Origin: a bacterium
GTDB taxonomy: Bacteria > Zixibacteria > MSB-5A5 > WJJR01
DNA: 47,969 nt
Direction of reading: 5' to 3'
Assembly: GCA_035559435.1 (NCBI GenBank)
Contig: DATMBC010000045.1
Location: 1 to 47,969 of the forward strand
Shown here: positions 33,862-46,704 of the stretch, in pieces
Layout: every line of letters begins with the position of its first letter
Numbering within the stretch: the first letter of the stretch is position 1
Program-made: the position numbers and the translations under genes
Notes under the pieces: generated by a model
Seen by the model: only the letters and a program-made list of their open reading frames with translations
The model's database searches: none
Told to the model about the DNA's origin: nothing

Positions 33862-35298
33862 ATGGGTGCTTTGCGATTGCTTTGCAAGACCCTGATTGTG
33901 GCGGTCGTGGCGCTAGGCGCACCGTCAGCGGCAGTGGCGGGGTTGCAAACGTCTAAATCGGAATTCGAACGCCGGGCGGCAGAGTACGATCAAGCGCTCA
34001 TAACACCAGCGCAGGCCACTCCCGAGCAACACCATCTTATCGCCGTCTCCCTGGCGGCGCACCACGCCCAGTCTTCCGACCTTTCGGAGATGCTGCGGGT
34101 TCTCGACGAGCTTGCGGCGCTCGTCACATACCTGCCGCAGTCGGACACGAGCTTTTGGTGGGACGGAGCTCAGTGGGTTCCGTCCAACCGAACCACGTAC
34201 ACCTATTCCGGCGCCAAGTTGACCGAGACGGTGTTTCAGTCAACCGGGGACGGCGTAAACTGGGTCAACGAGACCAGATCGGTCAATACCTATGACGGCA
34301 GTGGGCGCTTGGCCACCAGCACGTCGATGACCTGGTCTGGCGCGTGGGTCAATGCGACGATGGCGACCTTTACCTATGATGGCAGCGGAAACGTCGCCAC
34401 ATCGCTGAGCCAGACGTGGAGCGGGAGCGCCTGGGTAAACGAGTTTTACTCCACGATGACTTACTCCGGCTCCAACCTCGCGACCACGATAACGCAGATC
34501 TGGTCTGGTTCTGCCTGGGTCAATATGCGCAAGGATATCTACACATACGGCGGCTTCGGTCTATCAGAGATACTGACTCAGGCATGGACGGGCGCCTGGA
34601 TCGACGCCGAGCGGGTCGTCTACAGTTACGACGGGAGCGGACGGAGAACCCAGCAACTTTCACAGCTGTGGCGCAACAGCTCCTGGCGGAACTGGTTTAA
34701 GTACGATTTCGGCTACGATGGGGCGACCACAAACGAAATCCTCAACGTGCGCTCCGATTGGGATACCGCCGGCTCTGCCTGGGTCGCGTTTTCGGCGGAC
34801 ACGACCCGCTACTCCTCCAACAGACGAATCGAAATGGTGACGGCCTACTTCACGTTCCCATCCGTAATGCGGTTCCTCTACGCTTACGATGGTCCAGGTA
34901 ACCTTTCGGAGATCATCAATCAGAACGGATTTGGCTCAAATTGGATGAATTTCAGCCGAACCGTAATCGTTTACACCATGGCCGGTGTGTTCGATGATGA
35001 AAGCGCGGGCGGGCTGCCCGCCGGTTTCACTGTCTCCCAGAACTATCCGAACCCGTTCAATCTTGGCACGACAATTCCCTACACACTCTCCGGCGACGGC
35101 CCCGTTCGCATCAGCGTGAGCAACATCGTGGGCCAGACTGTCGCCACCTTGGTTGAGGGCTTCCAGCCGGCCGGCTCTTACACCGCCTATTGGGATGGCC
35201 GCGATCCCACCGGCCGCGCCATGGCCAGCGGCGTCTACTTCTTCCGCGCCGAGATCGGCGGACAGACCCAGGTGCGCAAGATGGTGCTGCTGAAGTAG
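33862..35298 (+). CDS. Secreted repeat protein with a T9SS type A sorting domain
   Basis: 478 residues. Signal peptide (about 1-26), a helical lead, then about eight repeats of roughly 30 residues with the pattern YTYDGSGxLxxxxxQxWSGSAW VN (for example TFTYDGSGNVATSLSQTWSG and MTYSGSNLATTITQIWSG), like YD-repeat beta-strands. The C-terminal domain (about 390-478) is FlgD-like: AGFTVSQNYPNPFNLGTTIP, ISVSNIVGQTVATLVEGFQP, YWDGRDPTGRAMASGVYFFR and a final VRKMVLLK, the type A sorting signal of the type IX secretion system. Expect export to the cell surface. CGGAGGAAC precedes the ATG. The DNA looks lower in GC than its neighbours. No T9SS machinery is in the window. Confidence 0.88.
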   Translation: MGALRLLCKTLIVAVVALGAPSAAVAGLQTSKSEFERRAAEYDQALITPAQATPEQHHLIAVSLAAHHAQSSDLSEMLRVLDELAALVTYLPQSDTSFWWDGAQWVPSNRTTYTYSGAKLTETVFQSTGDGVNWVNETRSVNTYDGSGRLATSTSMTWSGAWVNATMATFTYDGSGNVATSLSQTWSGSAWVNEFYSTMTYSGSNLATTITQIWSGSAWVNMRKDIYTYGGFGLSEILTQAWTGAWIDAERVVYSYDGSGRRTQQLSQLWRNSSWRNWFKYDFGYDGATTNEILNVRSDWDTAGSAWVAFSADTTRYSSNRRIEMVTAYFTFPSVMRFLYAYDGPGNLSEIINQNGFGSNWMNFSRTVIVYTMAGVFDDESAGGLPAGFTVSQNYPNPFNLGTTIPYTLSGDGPVRISVSNIVGQTVATLVEGFQPAGSYTAYWDGRDPTGRAMASGVYFFRAEIGGQTQVRKMVLLK

Positions 35299-37821: not shown

Positions 37822-38250
37822 CTAATACTCCACGTACACCGGCCGATCCTCCTGCACCGCCAGTTCGGCCGCCTTCATGAAGGCCTGACGGATTTCATCG
37901 CTGGAGGCACTGGCGGCCACCACGATGTCGGCGGGCGCCTGTGGCAGTTCCGCGCCGCCGCCCGAACCGCAGGTCACTTTGATCTCAATGGGGGTGTAAA
38001 TCCCAAATGTCACCGCGCCCACCAGCCAGTTGAGGAACGAATACTGAGTCTCCACTTTGGCCACACCGTGCGGGCACTTGCCCATCGTTTCGACCGTCTT
38101 CGGCGGCACCAGGCCAAACAGCCAGCACGAGGCAAACGGCTGGTGGATGGTCTGGGTCCCCGGCGGGAGACCGGTGTCGATGGTGGCGTGGTAACAGCCC
38201 GGTACGGCCAGCAACAAGGCCACTGCGACGGCGGCGCTTTTCAGCGTCAT
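37822..38250 (-). CDS. Bor/Iss-family lipoprotein with a C-terminal extension
   Basis: 142 residues; the ATG at 38250 has GGAGGTG upstream. Lipobox VPGC (Cys about 19), then TIHQPFASCWLFGLVPPKTVETMGKCPHGVAKVETQYSFLNW and TFGIYTPIEIKVTC, which follow the lambda Bor pattern (pheromone-like KTVE...C, KxETQxSFxN, TLGIYTPxE). Bor and Iss proteins are outer-membrane lipoproteins linked to serum resistance in enterics; in this host the role is unknown. A 38-residue tail (GSGGGAELPQAPADIVVAAS...PVYVEY) is not part of lambda Bor. Confidence 0.9.
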   Translation of the reverse strand: MTLKSAAVAVALLLAVPGCYHATIDTGLPPGTQTIHQPFASCWLFGLVPPKTVETMGKCPHGVAKVETQYSFLNWLVGAVTFGIYTPIEIKVTCGSGGGAELPQAPADIVVAASASSDEIRQAFMKAAELAVQEDRPVYVEY

Positions 38251-38479
38251 GGACACCTCCTGAATGACGTTCACCGCGGACGAGCGTGAATTGGGCCTAC
38301 TTAAGTCTGAATCATTCCGCGTCGCAAGCACAAAATCGGCGGGGCATGTTCAGGGGTGACGACATTGCGGACAACCGAATCCCACCGGCTCGGTTGACCC
38401 ACTGAAGTTAGTCGGCATGCTCTGGAACCAATTATCCAGCCCGGGAGGGAATCCCGGTGTGGCTGACCGTCGCAGCGAA

Positions 38480-38986: not shown

Positions 38987-40981
38987 ATGCGTAACAGCCC
39001 GCCTTTCGCAGTCGTTGTCGCCGTGTTGCTTGCCGCAGCGGCATATGCCGCTGTGCCGGCGAGCATGAGTGTGCAGGGGAAACTGACCGACGCCCTGGGC
39101 GAACCGATCGTCGGGAGCCAGAATTTCACGTTCAAAATCTTTGACGCCGCGGTTGGCGGGTCCGAGATCTGGCCCGGCGGTCCGGGCGAGACCCAGTCGC
39201 TGAACACCGACGCCAACGGTCTCTGGATCGGGCTGGTCGGCGCGGTAATCCCGCTCAACCACACAGTGTTTCAGGACACCGTGCGCTGGCTGGAGATTAC
39301 GGTCAACGGGACCACGCTGCCGCGCACCCGATTGGTCACCGGCGCCTACGCGCATCGCGTCGGGACCGTCGACGGCGCCTCCGGTGGCTGGATTACCAGC
39401 AAGGTGACAATTGGGCCGGGGCAGACGAATACGGGGTCCGAGGCCTTCGTCGCCGGCAGCAATAACACCGCCACCGGCGGCTGGTCGAATGTCGGCGGCG
39501 GCAGCGGCAACCTCGCCTCCGGCCCGTGGTCGAGCATCGGCGGCGGTGCCGGCAATATGTCCAGCAACGACGGGACAACGGTCGGCGGCGGCGAGTACAA
39601 TGTGGCCGCTGGTTTTCTGTCAACCGTCGGGGGCGGCTACAGCGATACGGCCTTCGGAGGCCACTCTGCCATCGGTGGCGGCAGCCGTAATCGCGCCTCC
39701 GGCGATTATTCATTCATCGGCGGCGGCCTTTACCACACGGCGTCGGGCACTGCCGCGACGGTGGCCGGCGGCGCGTCGAATCTTGCCTCCGCCTGGGGCG
39801 CCACGGTCGGCGGCGGGCAGTACGACACCGCGATTGGTTTATACTCCACCATCGCCGGCGGCAATCGCAACAGAGCAATAGGCGATGGGGCGACCGTCGG
39901 AGGCGGGGCCTACTGCTTTGCACGCGGCCCATACTCGGTCGTCGCCGGCGGCGGCGGGTTCGACAGCGACTCCAACTCGGCCAAGGGCGCCAACGCCACA
40001 ATTGGCGGGGGCCGTCACAACTACGCCGATGGCGTAGTGGCAACGGTCTCCGGCGGCGCCAGCAACAATGCGCCGGCCAGTCATGCGACCATCAGTGGCG
40101 GCGGCTCCAATTCGGCCACCGACTTCGGGGCGGTTGTTTGCGGTGGGTACGCCAACACGGCCGCTGGAGCGTGGTCGACGGTTGCCGGCGGCGATCACTG
40201 CGAGGCCACCGGCCAGTGCTCGTTTGCCGCCGGTCGCAACGCCAAGGCGATTCACAACGGCAGTTGGGTCTGGGGCAGCAGCGAACCTGTCGACTTTCCC
40301 TCCACGGCCGATCGGCAATTCCTGATCCGCGCCGTGGGGGGCGTGGGCATCAATACCAACACACCGACCGAAGACCTCACGATCAACGGCACCGTCGCTT
40401 TCGAGAACTCGTCGCTGCCGGCAATCAACATGTTTGAATCTGGAACCAGCAACGCCGACAAGATGATTCTGGCGCATTCCTCCGCGTTCCCAGACTGGGG
40501 GCTGGAGTATCGCGACGCCGACGACAAGTTCGTCTTCATCCGCGATGGGTTCCCGGGCATGACGATCGATTTCAATCAGGCCAATACCCTCGTGGGATTC
40601 GGTTCGGTCGACTCGCCCTCCAATATCATCACGTTGCCCAACTTTAACAGCATCAACGGCCGCGCGCTCGGCTTTGCCTGGGATGTCTACTCTTCTCGCC
40701 GTTGGAAGACCAACATCCGTCCGCTGGATGGATCGCTGGACAAGGTGCGCCGCCTGCAGGGCGTCTCCTATGATCCCATCGAGGGCGGCGGGCGACAGAT
40801 TGGTCTGATCGCCGAGGATGTCGGGCAGGTGGTTCCCGAAGTGGTGCAATACGAAGAGAACGGCGTCGATGCCAAGTCGATCGACTACGCGCGGCTGGTG
40901 GCGCTGCTCATCGAGGGGATGAAGGAACAACAGAAACGGATCGAGACGCTGGAGGCGACGATCCGGCAAATGCAACCGTAG
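38987..40981 (+). CDS. Secreted beta-roll fibre protein with S74 autocleaving chaperone domain (shorter paralogue)
   Basis: 664 residues in four parts: a signal peptide (1-22); an N-terminal domain shared with the 43582 gene (VQGKLTDALGEPIVG, SEIWPGGPGETQ, DGLWIGLVGA, VRWLEITVNGTTLP); about 18 YadA-head/Hep_Hag-type repeats of 15 residues (pattern SxIGGGxxNxAxGxx) at about 150-430; a connector; and a C-terminal peptidase S74 intramolecular chaperone. The dyad of that family is kept: Ser 569 and Lys 574 in SSRRWKTNIRPLDG, followed by IGLIAEDVGQVVPEVVQ and a coiled coil (LIEGMKEQQKRIETLEATIR). By family knowledge such proteins trimerise, and the chaperone cuts itself off. GGGAGG precedes the ATG at 38987. 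Likely a surface fibre, function unknown. Confidence 0.9.
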   Translation: MRNSPPFAVVVAVLLAAAAYAAVPASMSVQGKLTDALGEPIVGSQNFTFKIFDAAVGGSEIWPGGPGETQSLNTDANGLWIGLVGAVIPLNHTVFQDTVRWLEITVNGTTLPRTRLVTGAYAHRVGTVDGASGGWITSKVTIGPGQTNTGSEAFVAGSNNTATGGWSNVGGGSGNLASGPWSSIGGGAGNMSSNDGTTVGGGEYNVAAGFLSTVGGGYSDTAFGGHSAIGGGSRNRASGDYSFIGGGLYHTASGTAATVAGGASNLASAWGATVGGGQYDTAIGLYSTIAGGNRNRAIGDGATVGGGAYCFARGPYSVVAGGGGFDSDSNSAKGANATIGGGRHNYADGVVATVSGGASNNAPASHATISGGGSNSATDFGAVVCGGYANTAAGAWSTVAGGDHCEATGQCSFAAGRNAKAIHNGSWVWGSSEPVDFPSTADRQFLIRAVGGVGINTNTPTEDLTINGTVAFENSSLPAINMFESGTSNADKMILAHSSAFPDWGLEYRDADDKFVFIRDGFPGMTIDFNQANTLVGFGSVDSPSNIITLPNFNSINGRALGFAWDVYSSRRWKTNIRPLDGSLDKVRRLQGVSYDPIEGGGRQIGLIAEDVGQVVPEVVQYEENGVDAKSIDYARLVALLIEGMKEQQKRIETLEATIRQMQP

Positions 40982-41116
40982 CGCATTGCGTGGCACAACA
41001 CCGGGAATCGGCGATTCAGCGAGGGGCAGCCAGCTCGGGGCAATGGTGAACTTTTGCTGTTGCCGAATACGGGAGCGATTCGGTATTGTTTGCCGAACGC
41101 TGACTGGAGGCGCTCC

Positions 41117-41290
41117 ATGTGGATTGGCTTAATCGTCGTTGCGGTTGCCTTGATCGGCGTGTGGTGGTGGACGGTGGCACGGGACCAGCTCGTCTGCCCC
41201 AGTTGTGGCCATCCGATCGCGAAGCATCAGCAGCAGCAGCTCACTCCGGGACCGAACTACTGCGTGATCTGCCGCCGGGAATGCCACTGA
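41117..41290 (+). CDS. Small membrane protein with a zinc-ribbon-like tail
   Basis: 57 residues: a TM helix (IGLIVVAVALIGVWWWTVA) followed by LVCPSCGHPIAKH and YCVICRRECH, two CxxC pairs able to bind a metal. GGAGG lies 7 nt before the ATG at 41117. Too short to name; it may be a metal-binding accessory, possibly unrelated to its neighbours. Confidence 0.65.
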   Translation: MWIGLIVVAVALIGVWWWTVARDQLVCPSCGHPIAKHQQQQLTPGPNYCVICRRECH

Positions 41291-41456
41291 GCGACGGCCC
41301 TGCCGCGGCGATGCCTGCCTTCCCGCGTCCACGGGAATGCCAATCGCGCTTCCATTTAACTTAACGGAGAGGCATGATGAAATCCCGTCAGCTCATCGCA
41401 AGCGGCGGTGTAAGGCCGTCGCCTTCCCGACCGGACCACAATGCTCCGATTTACGC

Positions 41457-41484
41457 TTGACTGGCGCAGCCAACCGGACATATT
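41457..41484 (+). promoter_or_regulatory. Possible promoter of the Cys-rich lipoprotein gene
   Basis: TTGACT (41457-41462), 16 bases, CATATT (41479-41484); a start near 41491 leaves about 48 nt to the ATG at 41539. Confidence 0.45.
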
Positions 41485-41538
41485 TCCTCCGTCTTTCAGT
41501 TTTGGACCAAGTGCAACCTTTCTCTCACGGAGGAGCAT

Positions 41539-42408
41539 ATGTTTACGGCGTATGGGCGCCGGGCGTTGCCGGCCTTCCTGTTGGCGCTGGCGTTGACGGC
41601 CTGCGACGACGACAAGTCGAGCAATTCCAATTGCACTCTGCCGGCGGCGGCCAAGGACCTGCTGGAGGATGCCCTTAACAACTGGAACGATCTCTTCGCG
41701 GCCAATGTCGAGGCGCTCGGCTGGACCTGCGACCGGACACTGGCCACGGCCGTAGACATCGAGGACCTGCTGGATGAAATCACCGACCCCGGCGCCTGGC
41801 TGCCGATCGGCGATCCTTCCGATCCGTCTTCGGTGAATGTCGCCCGGTTGCAGGACGATCCGGCGATCACCCCCGCGATGATCGCCGACTGGCGCGACGG
41901 GGTGGACGCCATGCTGGATATCGGCCAGTATGTCGTGCGCACCCGCTGGCGCAAGGGCACCGACGAGTTCACCACGCTCACCGTCACCAGCGACGACGAG
42001 ATCATCTACGACAACATCCTCTACAACATCAGCGGCGCGGGGACTTCGACCCTTCTGGCGGCGGAAACACGGTGCGCGCACATTCGCATGTGGTGGATCT
42101 GGGAAAAGCACAAGGGATTCAACGGGTGGACCCGTGGCGAAATCATCGCCGACCTGAAACCCGATTGCTCGGGTCAGCAGATCATCTGCAACAAAGACTG
42201 CTCGGCCACGATGACCGGCGGCGACGCCAAGGTCAATTGCAAGACCACGCTGGCCGACAACTGCTGCATTATGGAGTACGAGTGGGCGTGGGCGTGCGGC
42301 TTCAAATCGGTCGAGGTCGAAGCCGATGGGTTCAAGCTCAAGGTGGAGGGGTATATCGGCTCCTCCGGCAGCGGCAACGGCAGTTGCAGCGAGTGCTGCG
42401 ACCGTTGA
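41539..42408 (+). CDS. Cys-rich lipoprotein of unknown function
   Basis: 289 residues: lipobox LTAC (Cys about 22), an acidic stretch, a helical middle and a C-terminal Cys-rich module with about 14 cysteines (KPDCSGQQIICNKDCSATMT, VNCKTTLADNCCIMEYEWAWACG, GSCSECCDR). The number of Cys suggests disulfides or metal binding on the envelope. GGAGGAG precedes the ATG. It is the only gene with this composition between the two fibre paralogues. No family assigned. Confidence 0.75.
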   Translation: MFTAYGRRALPAFLLALALTACDDDKSSNSNCTLPAAAKDLLEDALNNWNDLFAANVEALGWTCDRTLATAVDIEDLLDEITDPGAWLPIGDPSDPSSVNVARLQDDPAITPAMIADWRDGVDAMLDIGQYVVRTRWRKGTDEFTTLTVTSDDEIIYDNILYNISGAGTSTLLAAETRCAHIRMWWIWEKHKGFNGWTRGEIIADLKPDCSGQQIICNKDCSATMTGGDAKVNCKTTLADNCCIMEYEWAWACGFKSVEVEADGFKLKVEGYIGSSGSGNGSCSECCDR

Positions 42409-42442
42409 TCCCCATCGGGCGCGCGGAGAGCCGGCCGCGGCA

Positions 42443-42982
42443 TTACCCGCGCGGCAGGATCGACAGATACTCCCGCCAGGGGCCGACCGCGTCGCGGTAG
42501 CGGAAGGCCATCGTGCGGGCAATCTGGGCAATGTGATTGAGATCGTGCACCGCCCAGGTCGCGATCAACTGCCCGGCGGTGACTGGTCCCAGCGCCGGAT
42601 GCCGTCCCGGCGCGCTGAGATCGGCGGGGGAGAGCCGCATGTCGGCCAGCGCCGACAGGTTTGCGGCGCGCAGTTCGGCGAACTCGGCCAGCAGCATGGC
42701 CAATGTCTTGCCCTGGCTTTCGTGATACATGGCGAAGCGATCGACCGGGGCAAAGGCAATCGTGTCGCCATGCGCCAGGATGTGCCGCAGACGCACCATC
42801 CAGTCGGTCCGCTCGCCGTGAATCAGGTGCCCCACGACGTCATAAGGTGAAAACGTTTCCGGTCCGGTGTTGCAGGATGTCCACTCCTCCGGCAGGTCCG
42901 ACAGCCACGCCGACAAAAGCGGCGGCGTGCGCCGGAGAATCGCGATGGCTTCGGGGATTCGCAATACGGCATCGTTTGACAT
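42443..42982 (-). CDS. DinB-family protein
   Basis: 179 residues. The four-helix DinB fold is indicated by HLIHGERTDWMVRLRHIL and a WAVHDLNHIAQIARTM motif with the metal-ligand histidines of the family. DinB-like proteins are metal-dependent enzymes of varied function; the substrate here is unknown. Convergent with the preceding lipoprotein gene. Confidence 0.9.
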   Translation of the reverse strand: MSNDAVLRIPEAIAILRRTPPLLSAWLSDLPEEWTSCNTGPETFSPYDVVGHLIHGERTDWMVRLRHILAHGDTIAFAPVDRFAMYHESQGKTLAMLLAEFAELRAANLSALADMRLSPADLSAPGRHPALGPVTAGQLIATWAVHDLNHIAQIARTMAFRYRDAVGPWREYLSILPRG

Positions 42983-43033
42983 GGCGCCTTAACCTCCGCC
43001 CATGATATAGCCGAAAACCGCGGCGCCTTCAAG

Positions 43034-43054
43034 CGCCCGTCGTGGGGTCTTGAT
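43034..43054 (+). repeat. Direct repeat A, upstream copy
   Basis: 21 bases beginning CGCCCGTCGTGG, identical to 46963-46983. In the 599-bp gap 42983-43581, which holds no gene I can support. Confidence 0.75.
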
Positions 43055-43133
43055 ACCTCACGAACATGTCGGCGATACAATCCCCGCCACGATCTACCCC
43101 GTGATTTCAATGCGGCCTGGGCAAGCCCCGACA

Positions 43134-43192
43134 CAAAAAGCGTGTCAGGGCCACACCGCCACGGCGTGCCGAAGGCACAACAATGCTGACAC
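43134..43192. repeat. Repeat B, upstream copy, within a nested hairpin
   Basis: 43134-43154 matches 46900-46920 at 19 of 21 bases (AGCGTGTCAGGGCCAC core). From 43142 an inverted repeat GTGTCAG...CTGACAC (to 43192) encloses a GTGCC-GAA-GGCAC hairpin (43166-43178). Confidence 0.55.
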
Positions 43193-43262
43193 AACTCACG
43201 AGTCGTTGCCGGCGGGTAGAAACCCCTAATCGGGAGATGGTTGTCTACACGTGCCTGCTGTC

Positions 43263-43297
43263 GTTTCGCTTCGCGAAACCGCGGTCGGAGACCGCGG
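43263..43297. repeat. Two adjacent perfect hairpins
   Basis: GTTTCGC-TTC-GCGAAAC (43263-43279) directly followed by CCGCGGTC-GGA-GACCGCGG (43279-43297). From memory, the GTCGGAGACCGC unit is common in dispersed repeats of other uncultured bacteria. Confidence 0.6.
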
Positions 43298-43581
43298 CCG
43301 CACATCTCACTAACTGAGGCCGCCCGGCCCTCTAACCGAGTGGGCAAGAAGACATTAGGGATATGGGACCAACTCTAAAGCATAGGCAGATTACGGCGAC
43401 GGGGAATCACGTAAGGGCCAGTGAGCAGGTTCTGCGTCGGGGGATCGTGCGCAATAATTCCACCGTTTCAGTCCGCAAATCCTGCCTTATATTCTATAAC
43501 AAATATACACATCCGTCTTTGACGGGTGATTGTCTGTCCTCTCTCTGACCGTCAGTTCAGGCACTCTCAAGGAGGAATCCC

Positions 43582-46500
43582 ATGCGCGCCCGCATGATCA
43601 TCACCGCGTGTGGCGTGATTTTGGTTGGCACTGTTTCGCACGCCGCCGTCCCGACAAGCATTACCGTGCAAGGCAAACTCACCGACGCGGCCGGTCTTCC
43701 CTTGGTGGCGGGACCGAAGTCGTTTGTCTTCCGCATCTTCGACGCCGAATTTGGAGGCAGTGAAATCTGGCCCGGCGGCGCGGGCGAAGCGCAGACGATT
43801 ACGTCGTCATCAGATGGTCTATGGATCGGTTTGATCGGCGCGATCAACCCACTGGGCGAGTCCGTCTTTGCCGACTCTGTGCGTTGGCTTGAGATCACTG
43901 TCAACGGCACAACACTGCCGCGCGTACGCCTCGTGACCGCACCATTCAGCTTCCGTGTCGCAACAGTTGACGGCGCTTCTGGCGGCACAATCACCAGTAA
44001 AGTCTCCATTGGGCCGGGGCACACGAACACAGGGATTCATTCGTTTGCCGCGGGCGAGGGACAAACGATCAGCGGACACTGGAGTTCGATCACGGGTGGA
44101 AGTGGCAGCTCTGCGTCTGGAGGACATGCGTTCATCGGTGGCGGCGAAGCGAACACGGCCGGCAGCGATTATGCGACTGTTGCCGGAGGAAAGGATAATC
44201 AAGCGGCCGGAGAACTCTCGGCGATTGTTGGCGGGGATGGCAATGTCGCGTCCGGAATCTGGTCTGCCATTGGAGGTGGCGAAGGCAACCAGACGCCTGC
44301 GGATTGGTCCACGGTCGGCGGAGGACTCACCAATCAAGCGAATGCAGGAGTAAGCACAGTCAGCGGCGGTCACAACAACATCGCCAGCGGAAATGCCTCA
44401 ACCGTCTCTGGGGGCGAATTCAACCGGGCGCGCGGCAGTCACTCAGCCGTCGCCGGGGGGGGCGGACTCGTTGCTTCTGATTCGAATTCCGCATTGGGTG
44501 CCAACGCATTCGTCGGAGGCGGCAGAGGCAACATCGCTTCGGGCGACTCATCGACAATTGTGGCTGGTGCGCGAAACTTAGCCAGCGAGGTGAATGCGAC
44601 GGTGGGCGGTGGCCGGGCCAATCAGGCAACCGCACAACATGCTACCGTCGCGGGCGGAAGTGGAAATGTCGCCGAAGGACCGCACGCGTTTGTCGGAGGT
44701 GGAGATGGCGTGGTCGCCACAGGCGCGGCCAGCACTGTCGGCGGCGGCGAAAGCAATTCGGCGTCCCAGAGCTACGCAACGGTCGGGGGTGGTATACTCA
44801 ACGAAGCGGGGGGATACGGGTCATTTGTCGGTAGCGGCGAGGAGAACCAGGCAACGGGTGTGATTTCCGCCATCCCCGGCGGTACAGGAAATCGCGCTGC
44901 GGGCTATGCAGCGAATGTTGCTGGAGGAATCCTGAATGTTGCCGGGGACACGGCGGCAAGCATCGGCGGCGGACGACACAATCGAGCGAGGGGACGCTAT
45001 TCCGTCGTGTCCGGCGGCGGTGGGCCCGCGGAAACGGATTCCAATGCCGCTTATGGGACGAATTCAACAATTGGAGGTGGCAGGGCGAACCTGGCCGTCG
45101 CGGACTCGACGACGATCGGAGGTGGCGGTGGTAACGTCACCGCGGCCATCGGGGCGACAATTGCCGGCGGTGGAGCCAACTTCGTCCGCGGCGCCTTTGG
45201 CGTCGTTGGAGGAGGCAAGAACAACCGCTCGCATGGCCCCTATTCCGTGATCGGCGGGGGCGGCGGCGACGCATCCGCAGATTCCAATGCGGCCGCCGGC
45301 CAGAATACCACCGTTTCCGGAGGACGATCCAATGCCGCCACTGGGCGATACGCGTCGGTCGGCGGAGGACGCCATGGGCGCGCCCACGGGGCATATTCTT
45401 TCATCGGAGGAGGCGGCGGGGACTTGGACAAGGATTCCAACGCGGCGTCCGGACAAAACGCAACCGTGTGTGGCGGTGGTATGAACACCGCATCAGGGGA
45501 TTACGGAACTGTGGGGGGAGGACGCCGGAATTACTCCCGTGGGAAATTCGCTTTCGTCGGCGGTGGCGGCGGAGATTTTGAGCCCGACTCAAATTCTGCT
45601 TCCGGTGAGAATTCCGTCATCTCCGGAGGAAAGAGCAACGTTGCCAGTGGCCTTCGCGCAACGGTGTCCGGCGGCTTCTCCAATCGGGCGACCGATCAGG
45701 GCGCCAGCATCGGCGGTGGCACAGCCAATGATGCTTCGGCGCTGGCCGCCACGGTCAGCGGCGGATATCGAAATCACGCTCGAGGAGAGTACAGCGTTGT
45801 GTGCGGCGGAGGCGGGCAGCTCGACTCGGACACGAACACGGCCGCCGGAAGCAGCTCATTCATCGGGGGCGGCGCCGGCAATTATGTCAGCTCCTCGGCG
45901 GAGTACTCGGTGATCGGTGGCGGGCGGAACAATCTGGCGAGCGGAGATTCTTCCGTCATCGCGGGAGGACTCAACAATACTGCGAGCGGTCATTCATCGA
46001 CTATCGGCGGTGGCAAATACAATGAGGCGTTGGCGTCGAACTCAACTGTGTGCTGTGGGCTTTCGAACATAGCATCCGGATCGCAGGCGGTCGCGGTCGG
46101 TGGACAACTGAATGAGGCGCGAGGACTACGCTCGCTGGCGGCTGGCTTCAATGCCAAAGCACATCACCAGGGTTCAATCGTGATCGCCGCTGGTGGAAGC
46201 GGTGTAGTGAGTGATTCAATCAGGTCGGGTGCCAATGGGCAAATGGTGCTCCGCGCCAATGCAGGGCTTTACATTACAAACACCTCTGGAACGGCCACAC
46301 CCATAGCGGGTCAGTTTATTACCACGACCGCAGGTTCCCCGGGAGCTCACCTCACGACAACCGGCGTCTGGACGAACGCATCCAGCGCGGAGAGCAAAGA
46401 AAACTTCCGGCCGCTGGACGGCGACTGCCTGCTGGAAAAGGTCGTGCAGTTGCCAATCACGAGATGGAACTATAAAGATGATCCCGACAGCGTCACGCAC

Positions 46501-46704
46501 ATCGGGCCCGTCGCGCAGGATTTCTATCGCTTATTCGGCGTTGGCAGCAACGACAGGACAATTTCAACGATCGACCCGTCCGGCGTTGCGCTCGCGGCCA
46601 TCCAGACCCTCTGCAAGCGGAATCAGGAGCTCGAAACGGCGGTCATAAAACTGCAAAACGAACTGAAGAGCATCAGGGAGACTCTGGCGACGCGCTCAAA
46701 GTAG
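43582..46704 (+). CDS. Large secreted beta-roll fibre protein with S74 autocleaving chaperone domain
   Basis: 1040 residues and the same build as the 38987 gene: signal (1-21); shared N-terminal domain (VQGKLTDAAGLPLVAG, GSEIWPGGAGEAQ, DGLWIGLIGA); about 45 YadA-head/Hep_Hag-type repeats of 15 residues (about 150-830) and a set of longer 20-21-residue units; then S74 with Ser 934 and Lys 939 in SSAESKENFRPLDG, and a closing coiled coil (LCKRNQELETAVIKLQNELK). The S74 core is more divergent than its paralogue's but the dyad is intact. GGAGG precedes the ATG at 43582; an ATG at 43594 is also possible. Codon choice uses more GGA/GGT and less third-position GC than most of the window. Short repeats A and B occur on both sides. 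Confidence 0.9.
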   Translation: MRARMIITACGVILVGTVSHAAVPTSITVQGKLTDAAGLPLVAGPKSFVFRIFDAEFGGSEIWPGGAGEAQTITSSSDGLWIGLIGAINPLGESVFADSVRWLEITVNGTTLPRVRLVTAPFSFRVATVDGASGGTITSKVSIGPGHTNTGIHSFAAGEGQTISGHWSSITGGSGSSASGGHAFIGGGEANTAGSDYATVAGGKDNQAAGELSAIVGGDGNVASGIWSAIGGGEGNQTPADWSTVGGGLTNQANAGVSTVSGGHNNIASGNASTVSGGEFNRARGSHSAVAGGGGLVASDSNSALGANAFVGGGRGNIASGDSSTIVAGARNLASEVNATVGGGRANQATAQHATVAGGSGNVAEGPHAFVGGGDGVVATGAASTVGGGESNSASQSYATVGGGILNEAGGYGSFVGSGEENQATGVISAIPGGTGNRAAGYAANVAGGILNVAGDTAASIGGGRHNRARGRYSVVSGGGGPAETDSNAAYGTNSTIGGGRANLAVADSTTIGGGGGNVTAAIGATIAGGGANFVRGAFGVVGGGKNNRSHGPYSVIGGGGGDASADSNAAAGQNTTVSGGRSNAATGRYASVGGGRHGRAHGAYSFIGGGGGDLDKDSNAASGQNATVCGGGMNTASGDYGTVGGGRRNYSRGKFAFVGGGGGDFEPDSNSASGENSVISGGKSNVASGLRATVSGGFSNRATDQGASIGGGTANDASALAATVSGGYRNHARGEYSVVCGGGGQLDSDTNTAAGSSSFIGGGAGNYVSSSAEYSVIGGGRNNLASGDSSVIAGGLNNTASGHSSTIGGGKYNEALASNSTVCCGLSNIASGSQAVAVGGQLNEARGLRSLAAGFNAKAHHQGSIVIAAGGSGVVSDSIRSGANGQMVLRANAGLYITNTSGTATPIAGQFITTTAGSPGAHLTTTGVWTNASSAESKENFRPLDGDCLLEKVVQLPITRWNYKDDPDSVTHIGPVAQDFYRLFGVGSNDRTISTIDPSGVALAAIQTLCKRNQELETAVIKLQNELKSIRETLATRSK

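Follow-up and report, generated by a model that had tools for sequence, protein, structure and literature searches.

How do two exported bacterial proteins come to end in a self-cleaving chaperone domain best known from phage tail spikes? The question is raised by a 47,969-nucleotide stretch of DNA (the window; contig DATMBC010000045.1 of assembly GCA_035559435.1), which belongs to a Zixibacteria metagenome-assembled genome (MAG) of 2,998,610 bases in 106 contigs. An earlier note made from the sequence alone had singled out two secreted proteins, here called W1 and W2, in which a signal peptide, a common N-terminal domain (N-domain) and a series of beta-roll repeats precede a C-terminal Peptidase_S74 (S74) domain, and had presented S74-ended exported bacterial proteins as an oddity. 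The same plan has in fact been published for the mosaic adhesive trimer (MAT) fibres by which the predatory bacterium Bdellovibrio bacteriovorus binds its prey (Nat Microbiol 2024, PMC10769870). In our view W1 and W2 probably both belong to a large family of MAT-type surface fibres, adhesive, self-cleaving and registered by S74; trimerization, self-cleavage, surface display and adhesion are what we infer for these two proteins from the features set out below. Both open reading frames (ORFs) are intact, and their signal peptides, like those of the GFW-module proteins described below, were identified by eye.

38987..40981, + strand: W1, MAT-type fibre protein of 664 amino acids (aa), whole coding sequence; ATG start at 38987, followed by the signal peptide
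38987..39049, + strand: W1 signal peptide, aa 1-21, ...AYA|AVP (by eye)
39050..39388, + strand: W1 N-terminal MAT-type domain, aa 22-134, a predicted beta-sandwich (16 other copies in the genome; Bdello_MAT_N match; model confidence about 95)
39401..40276, + strand: W1 beta-roll shaft, aa ~139-430, 16 strict 15-aa UspA1/YadA-head-like repeats (3pr7 match, model, lag-15 repeat)
40394..40690, + strand: W1 segment between shaft and S74, aa 470-568, putative trimeric tip (low-confidence monomer model; assigned by comparison with Bd3182, PMC10769870)
40691..40978, + strand: W1 S74 intramolecular chaperone/protease, aa 569-664, with Ser569-Lys574 and a C-terminal helix (Pfam, alignment, model)
43582..46704, + strand: W2, MAT-type fibre protein of 1040 aa, whole coding sequence (ORF, Pfam, N-domain search)
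43582..43644, + strand: W2 signal peptide, aa 1-21, ...SHA|AVP (by eye)
43645..43986, + strand: W2 N-terminal MAT-type domain, aa 22-135 (59% identity to the W1 N-domain; Bdello_MAT_N match)
43996..46221, + strand: W2 beta-roll shaft, aa ~139-880, 44 strict 15-aa repeats (LbR_Ice_bind, 3pr7 match, lag-15 repeat)
46381..46701, + strand: W2 S74 domain of a second class (GPxAQDF...GVALAAIQ), with Ser934-Lys939 (Pfam, alignment)

The S74 assignment held for both proteins, with scores of 50.4 bits in W1 (aa 569-620, E 3e-13) and 36.8 bits in W2 (aa 934-984, E 5e-9) against a Pfam cut-off of 22, and the expected Ser-x4-Lys dyads are found at S569/K574 and S934/K939 respectively. Cleavage at these serines is predicted to release C-terminal fragments of 96 aa (10.8 kDa) from W1 and 107 aa (11.9 kDa) from W2, within the 10-12 kDa range that the earlier note had anticipated. 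Conservation of the dyad, which that note had named as a check, was borne out in 79 S74 ORFs from loci of the phylum: all 79 carry Ser, Thr or Cys at the catalytic position (74, four and one, respectively) and 77 carry the Lys, while most other alignment columns are variable. The hexapeptide S-S-R-R-W-K is common to W1, its relative C16a in the same genome and a protein of one related species. The single Cys (CDSAVK) belongs to C56a (L032:1-579), a gene of this genome cut by a contig end, and the four Thr versions (L155:7001-9535, L148:1-1875, L150:975-2892 and a minus-strand ORF of L132), two of which also lack the Lys, are possibly chaperone-only or dead. Like the endosialidase and T5 tail-fibre chaperones (PF13884; 3gw6, 4uw8), W1 and W2 combine an S74 score over the Pfam cut-off with the same dyad spacing and a C-terminal helix, but unlike those proteins they are exported by a bacterium and carry an N-domain that, with W1 as query, is unmatched among phage records.

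Between the N-domain and S74 both proteins are strongly repetitive, with a lag-15 identity of 0.34 in W1 and 0.33 in W2 (shuffle maxima 0.17 and 0.15), and phmmer matched these repeats to the solved head of UspA1 (3pr7) at 4e-21 and 7e-23 respectively. Where the earlier note gave 18 and about 45 repeats, 16 and 44 strict units are counted here; the repeats themselves are real. Pfam UspA1_rep matches remained under the cut-off, and LbR_Ice_bind was just over its cut-off of 30 in W2 (32.4 bits). An AlphaFold model of the W1 monomer, built on 46 family sequences, gave predicted local distance difference test (pLDDT) values of 97-98 for the majority of the repeats; values were 79-97 across most N-domain residues and 81-91 across most of S74. 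Together with the 3pr7 matches, this supports the proposal that the predicted W1 shaft folds as a beta-roll.

The N-domain, too, links these proteins to the MATs. The N-domains of W1 and W2 are 59% identical, and Bdello_MAT_N (NCBIfam NF053851) was matched by all 17 aligned N-domains of this genome at E<=1 (best 2e-11) and by 96 of 100 N-domains across the phylum at E<=0.01. We call the domain MAT-type, and not a strict member of the NF053851 subfamily, because its scores fall under the curated cut-off; by sequence comparison it is homologous. A model of its 112 residues reached a pLDDT of about 95 over the core and, searched against the PDB, gave no match at E<=0.001, as reported for MATs. 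Among 50,697 phage records the W1 N-domain had no match at all, the S74 domain of W1 matching 704 of these records and that of W2 31. In Bdellovibrio MATs an N-domain of about 130 aa likewise follows the signal peptide (PMC10769870), and a role as anchor would be a matter of inference there as it is here.

Within this genome the N-domain is what the many members of the family have in common, in a census based on searches and fetched stretches. Searches with the W1 N-domain found 17 places, and 18 with a wider profile. S74 occurs in 12 genes, 11 of the W1/W2 kind when C56a, which is cut ahead of its N-domain, is included. Many lie in tandem groups, four on contig C106, three on C16 and two each on C80, C56 and C45 (the last being W1 and W2), and the N-domain genes without S74 have several other C-termini. 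This makes a multi-copy mosaic set of 17-18 N-domain genes, 10-11 of them with S74, comparable with the 21 MATs, 13 with S74, of Bdellovibrio HD100 (PMC10769870), in which S74 and non-S74 members also occur together in many copies with an N-domain lacking PDB relatives. On C106 and C56, MAT genes are cut by contig ends; the assembly is thus likely to be interrupted at the repeats of these genes, and the true number of copies may be higher. One non-S74 tip (GDLLTT..PGHAM....GxIIGKAM..L) recurs on MAT N-domains of several species (L036:5004-6677, L142:5036-7166, L150:2986-5272, L158:1711-3637 and a minus-strand N-domain ORF of L166); for the C19 tip (GDLLTT..PGHAM..G.IIGKAM), a suspected identity as a Peptidase_G2-type chaperone found no support in searches of Pfam, PHROGs and the PDB.

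Bases and tips show different patterns of relationship. The S74 tree contains two fully supported classes, one comprising W2 and C39 (by eye also C56a) and the other the remainder, within which W1 pairs with C16a (99/99). W1 and W2 can thus be called paralogues, as they had been, for their N-domain and repeat type but not for their S74 domains, which share about 28% identity across two deep classes. W1 and C16a are 61% identical in S74 but 48% in the N-domain, where W1 is closer to C106c (69%). The N-domain tree is poorly resolved, with no starred branch, and weakly rejects a clade of W1 and C16a (p 0.038). Such an identity pattern would be expected if tips were swapped while the base stayed constant; unequal rates may also account for it.

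Beyond this genome, the N-domain was detected in 120 of 132 Zixibacteria genomes (up to 27 copies) and S74 in 81, none of the genomes listed having more S74 than this one. The two domains travel together: in 73 of the 79 S74 ORFs of the fetched loci the reading frame also encodes the N-domain, and the six exceptions are a prophage fibre, four pieces cut by the sequence end and one frameshifted gene with an N-domain ORF directly upstream. In loci picked almost entirely by S74 score alone the figure was 36 of 38, the other two being truncated and frameshifted respectively. The census of the N-domain suggested by the earlier note has revealed a family spanning most of the phylum. Among named genomes of other groups, single ORFs combining N-domain and S74 were found in Planctomycetota (Phycisphaerales and others), in a MAG of the Puniceicoccaceae and in one of the gammaproteobacterial family Wenzhouxiangellaceae.

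Taken together, W1 and W2 resemble the S74 group of Bdellovibrio MATs, represented by Bd3182, in having a signal peptide, a constant beta-rich N-domain next to it, a variable shaft and a C-terminal S74 with a Ser-Lys dyad, and differ from them in phylum and in their UspA1/YadA-head-like beta-roll shaft (YadA is unmentioned in PMC10769870). Bd3182 self-cleaves in vitro, and its substitution S782A abolishes cleavage (PMC10769870). By analogy, each chain would be exported via Sec, as the signal peptide read from its sequence suggests, and the constant N-domain would sit at the cell surface. The shaft would be a trimeric left-handed beta-roll formed by the 15-residue repeats, 16 or 44 of which set its length. 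S74 would trimerize the chains, register the distal tip and then cut itself off at Ser569 (W1) or Ser934 (W2) through the Ser-Lys dyad, and the tip thereby exposed would bind a ligand on a surface, for which a glycan belonging to another cell or to a matrix is the likeliest choice.

What holds the MAT N-domain was left open in the Bdellovibrio work (PMC10769870). Clustering of the ORFs beside MAT genes yielded a recurrent neighbour, a small secreted protein with a signal peptide, a variable linker, a 48-residue module with the consensus WQxIxxGG...GQ..G....GFW (the GFW module; alignment A6) and mostly two dockerin-like repeats, Pfam Dockerin_1 being matched in five of 21 such proteins (e.g. 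L114:2588-3161, L149:3906-4416, L144:3506-4217 and L066:4463-4895, among others). A first neighbour cluster of 42 loci was inflated by dockerins and by domains of the type IX secretion system (T9SS), and the counts given here are based on the GFW module alone. In the family to which the window belongs, 28 GFW-module proteins were found in seven genomes, 19 of which follow an N-domain on the same strand at a distance of at most 4 kb (0.17 expected, assuming random gene positions); two are in the wrong order and one is on the opposite strand. Seen from the other side, 20 of 59 MAT genes in this family have a GFW-module neighbour, whose ORF often overlaps the MAT gene or begins 3 bases past its stop codon. 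The pairing recurs in three phyla besides Zixibacteria, 17 of 31 module proteins lying downstream of a MAT gene in genomes chosen for a known MAT locus; in Tahibacter all four lie directly upstream of one, and so does one Chloroflexi copy in a locus found earlier. The C-terminus of the module protein varies by clade: Zixibacteria and Planctomycetota have a dockerin-like end, Chloroflexi one that looks SLH-like by eye and Gammaproteobacteria a short tail, IFxDxFE. Ends of the dockerin-like type are frequent in themselves (52-101 matches per genome with a profile of module plus dockerin), and this genome also encodes cohesin-like domains (best 3e-8). It has four copies of the module, on C16 (14219-14365, + strand), C17 (119979-120122, - strand), C31 and C75, two of them near MAT genes but none beside W1 or W2. 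On the basis of gene neighbourhood, we propose the GFW-module protein as the best candidate holder of the MAT fibre base. The broader suggestion, that MAT fibres are a widespread two-part appendage in which the clade-specific C-terminus of the module protein would tether the base of the fibre to the cell, is put forward tentatively, and we hold it to be rather doubtful. No paper describing the GFW module or Zixibacteria MAT fibres was found in the open PMC literature.

Several observations weigh against reading W1 and W2 as self-cleaving MAT-type fibres. All individually scored N-domains fall under the curated Bdello_MAT_N cut-off of 60 bits (best 43.9; W1 16.8), and the dyad motif is SSxxxK in W1 and W2 as against SDxxxK in the published MATs (PMC10769870). 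In the monomer model, W1 aa 473-566, the putative counterpart of the intertwined trimeric tip of Bd3182, mostly have a pLDDT below 50. A Foldseek search of the full W1 model against the PDB returned nothing significant, the endosialidase chaperone 3gw6 ranking 11th (E 0.2).

Some of these points bear on a different account, in which S74 acts as a chaperone without cleavage or the fibres are periplasmic and serve as an envelope scaffold. The divergent motif, the few family members without the dyad and the absence of an export tag speak for it; the dyad nevertheless ranks with the best-conserved features of S74, and S-S-R-R-W-K is shared between W1, C16a and a related species. We regard this account as unlikely. 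Equally unlikely in our estimation is export of W1 and W2 by the genome's T9SS without a recognizable C-terminal signal, the tag perhaps being removed or supplied by a partner. The genome does encode SprA (621.8 bits summed in one frame) and has 29 matches to the T9SS C-terminal domain, one of them in the gene at 33862 of the window, but no such domain was found in W1 or W2, as had been noticed at the outset, nor among the family members scanned with Pfam; the signal of T9SS cargo is C-terminal, and here S74 occupies that end. Identity as T9SS cargo was rejected on the lack of this sorting domain, and the outer-membrane export route of W1 and W2 stays open, as it does in Bdellovibrio.

A phage origin, with W1 and W2 as tail fibres of a prophage or of a phage-derived particle (a tailocin or an extracellular contractile injection system) and their signal peptides misread, has in its favour that S74 is a phage domain and that PHROG tail-fibre families match the W1 C-terminus. 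The genome even holds a contractile prophage (C74; L035:1451-15443) whose own S74 tail fibre, the 12th S74 gene, offers a natural contrast to the MAT S74s: this true prophage fibre shares SxxxxK with W1 and W2 but lacks both the signal peptide and the N-domain, and the genes around it encode tail sheath, head closure, tape measure and baseplate proteins. W1 and W2, on the other hand, are surrounded by cellular and not by phage structural genes, and their N-domain, absent from the phage records when searched with W1, is present in most genomes of the phylum. A prophage origin was rejected on the neighbourhood, the phage-record search and the contrast with C74, and we consider it very improbable. 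Least probable of all is that W1 and W2 belong to the type Vc trimeric autotransporters, adhesins whose head is of the YadA type; this was rejected since, despite the 15-residue left-handed beta-roll repeats matching the UspA1/YadA head, no YadA_anchor was found in the whole genome and the C-terminus is S74 and not a membrane anchor.

The genes around W1 and W2 in the window encode efflux, permease, TonB-receptor-like and sensor-kinase proteins. W1 and W2, though in tandem, do not strictly form an operon: between them lie a gene for a lipoprotein-like protein and, on the opposite strand, a DinB gene. The former (P0004, 41539-42408) encodes a Cys-rich protein of 289 aa with an LTAC lipobox, which had no family in the Pfam scan and was not among the recurrent MAT-neighbour clusters inspected. 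Upstream of W1, a protein with a Lambda_Bor domain (8e-17) is encoded at 37822-38256 on the minus strand, in a genome distant from enterobacteria.

The MAT plan is known from a predator, and here it is present in 17-18 copies in a single genome and is common across a poorly known phylum. Since the combination of N-domain and S74 extends to Planctomycetota and to one MAG each of Puniceicoccaceae and Gammaproteobacteria, recognition of surfaces in general, and not predation alone, is probably what these fibres serve. With the conserved neighbour gene there is a concrete candidate that can be tested as the missing partner of MATs at the surface and, if true, the two-part reading would answer what holds the N-domain.

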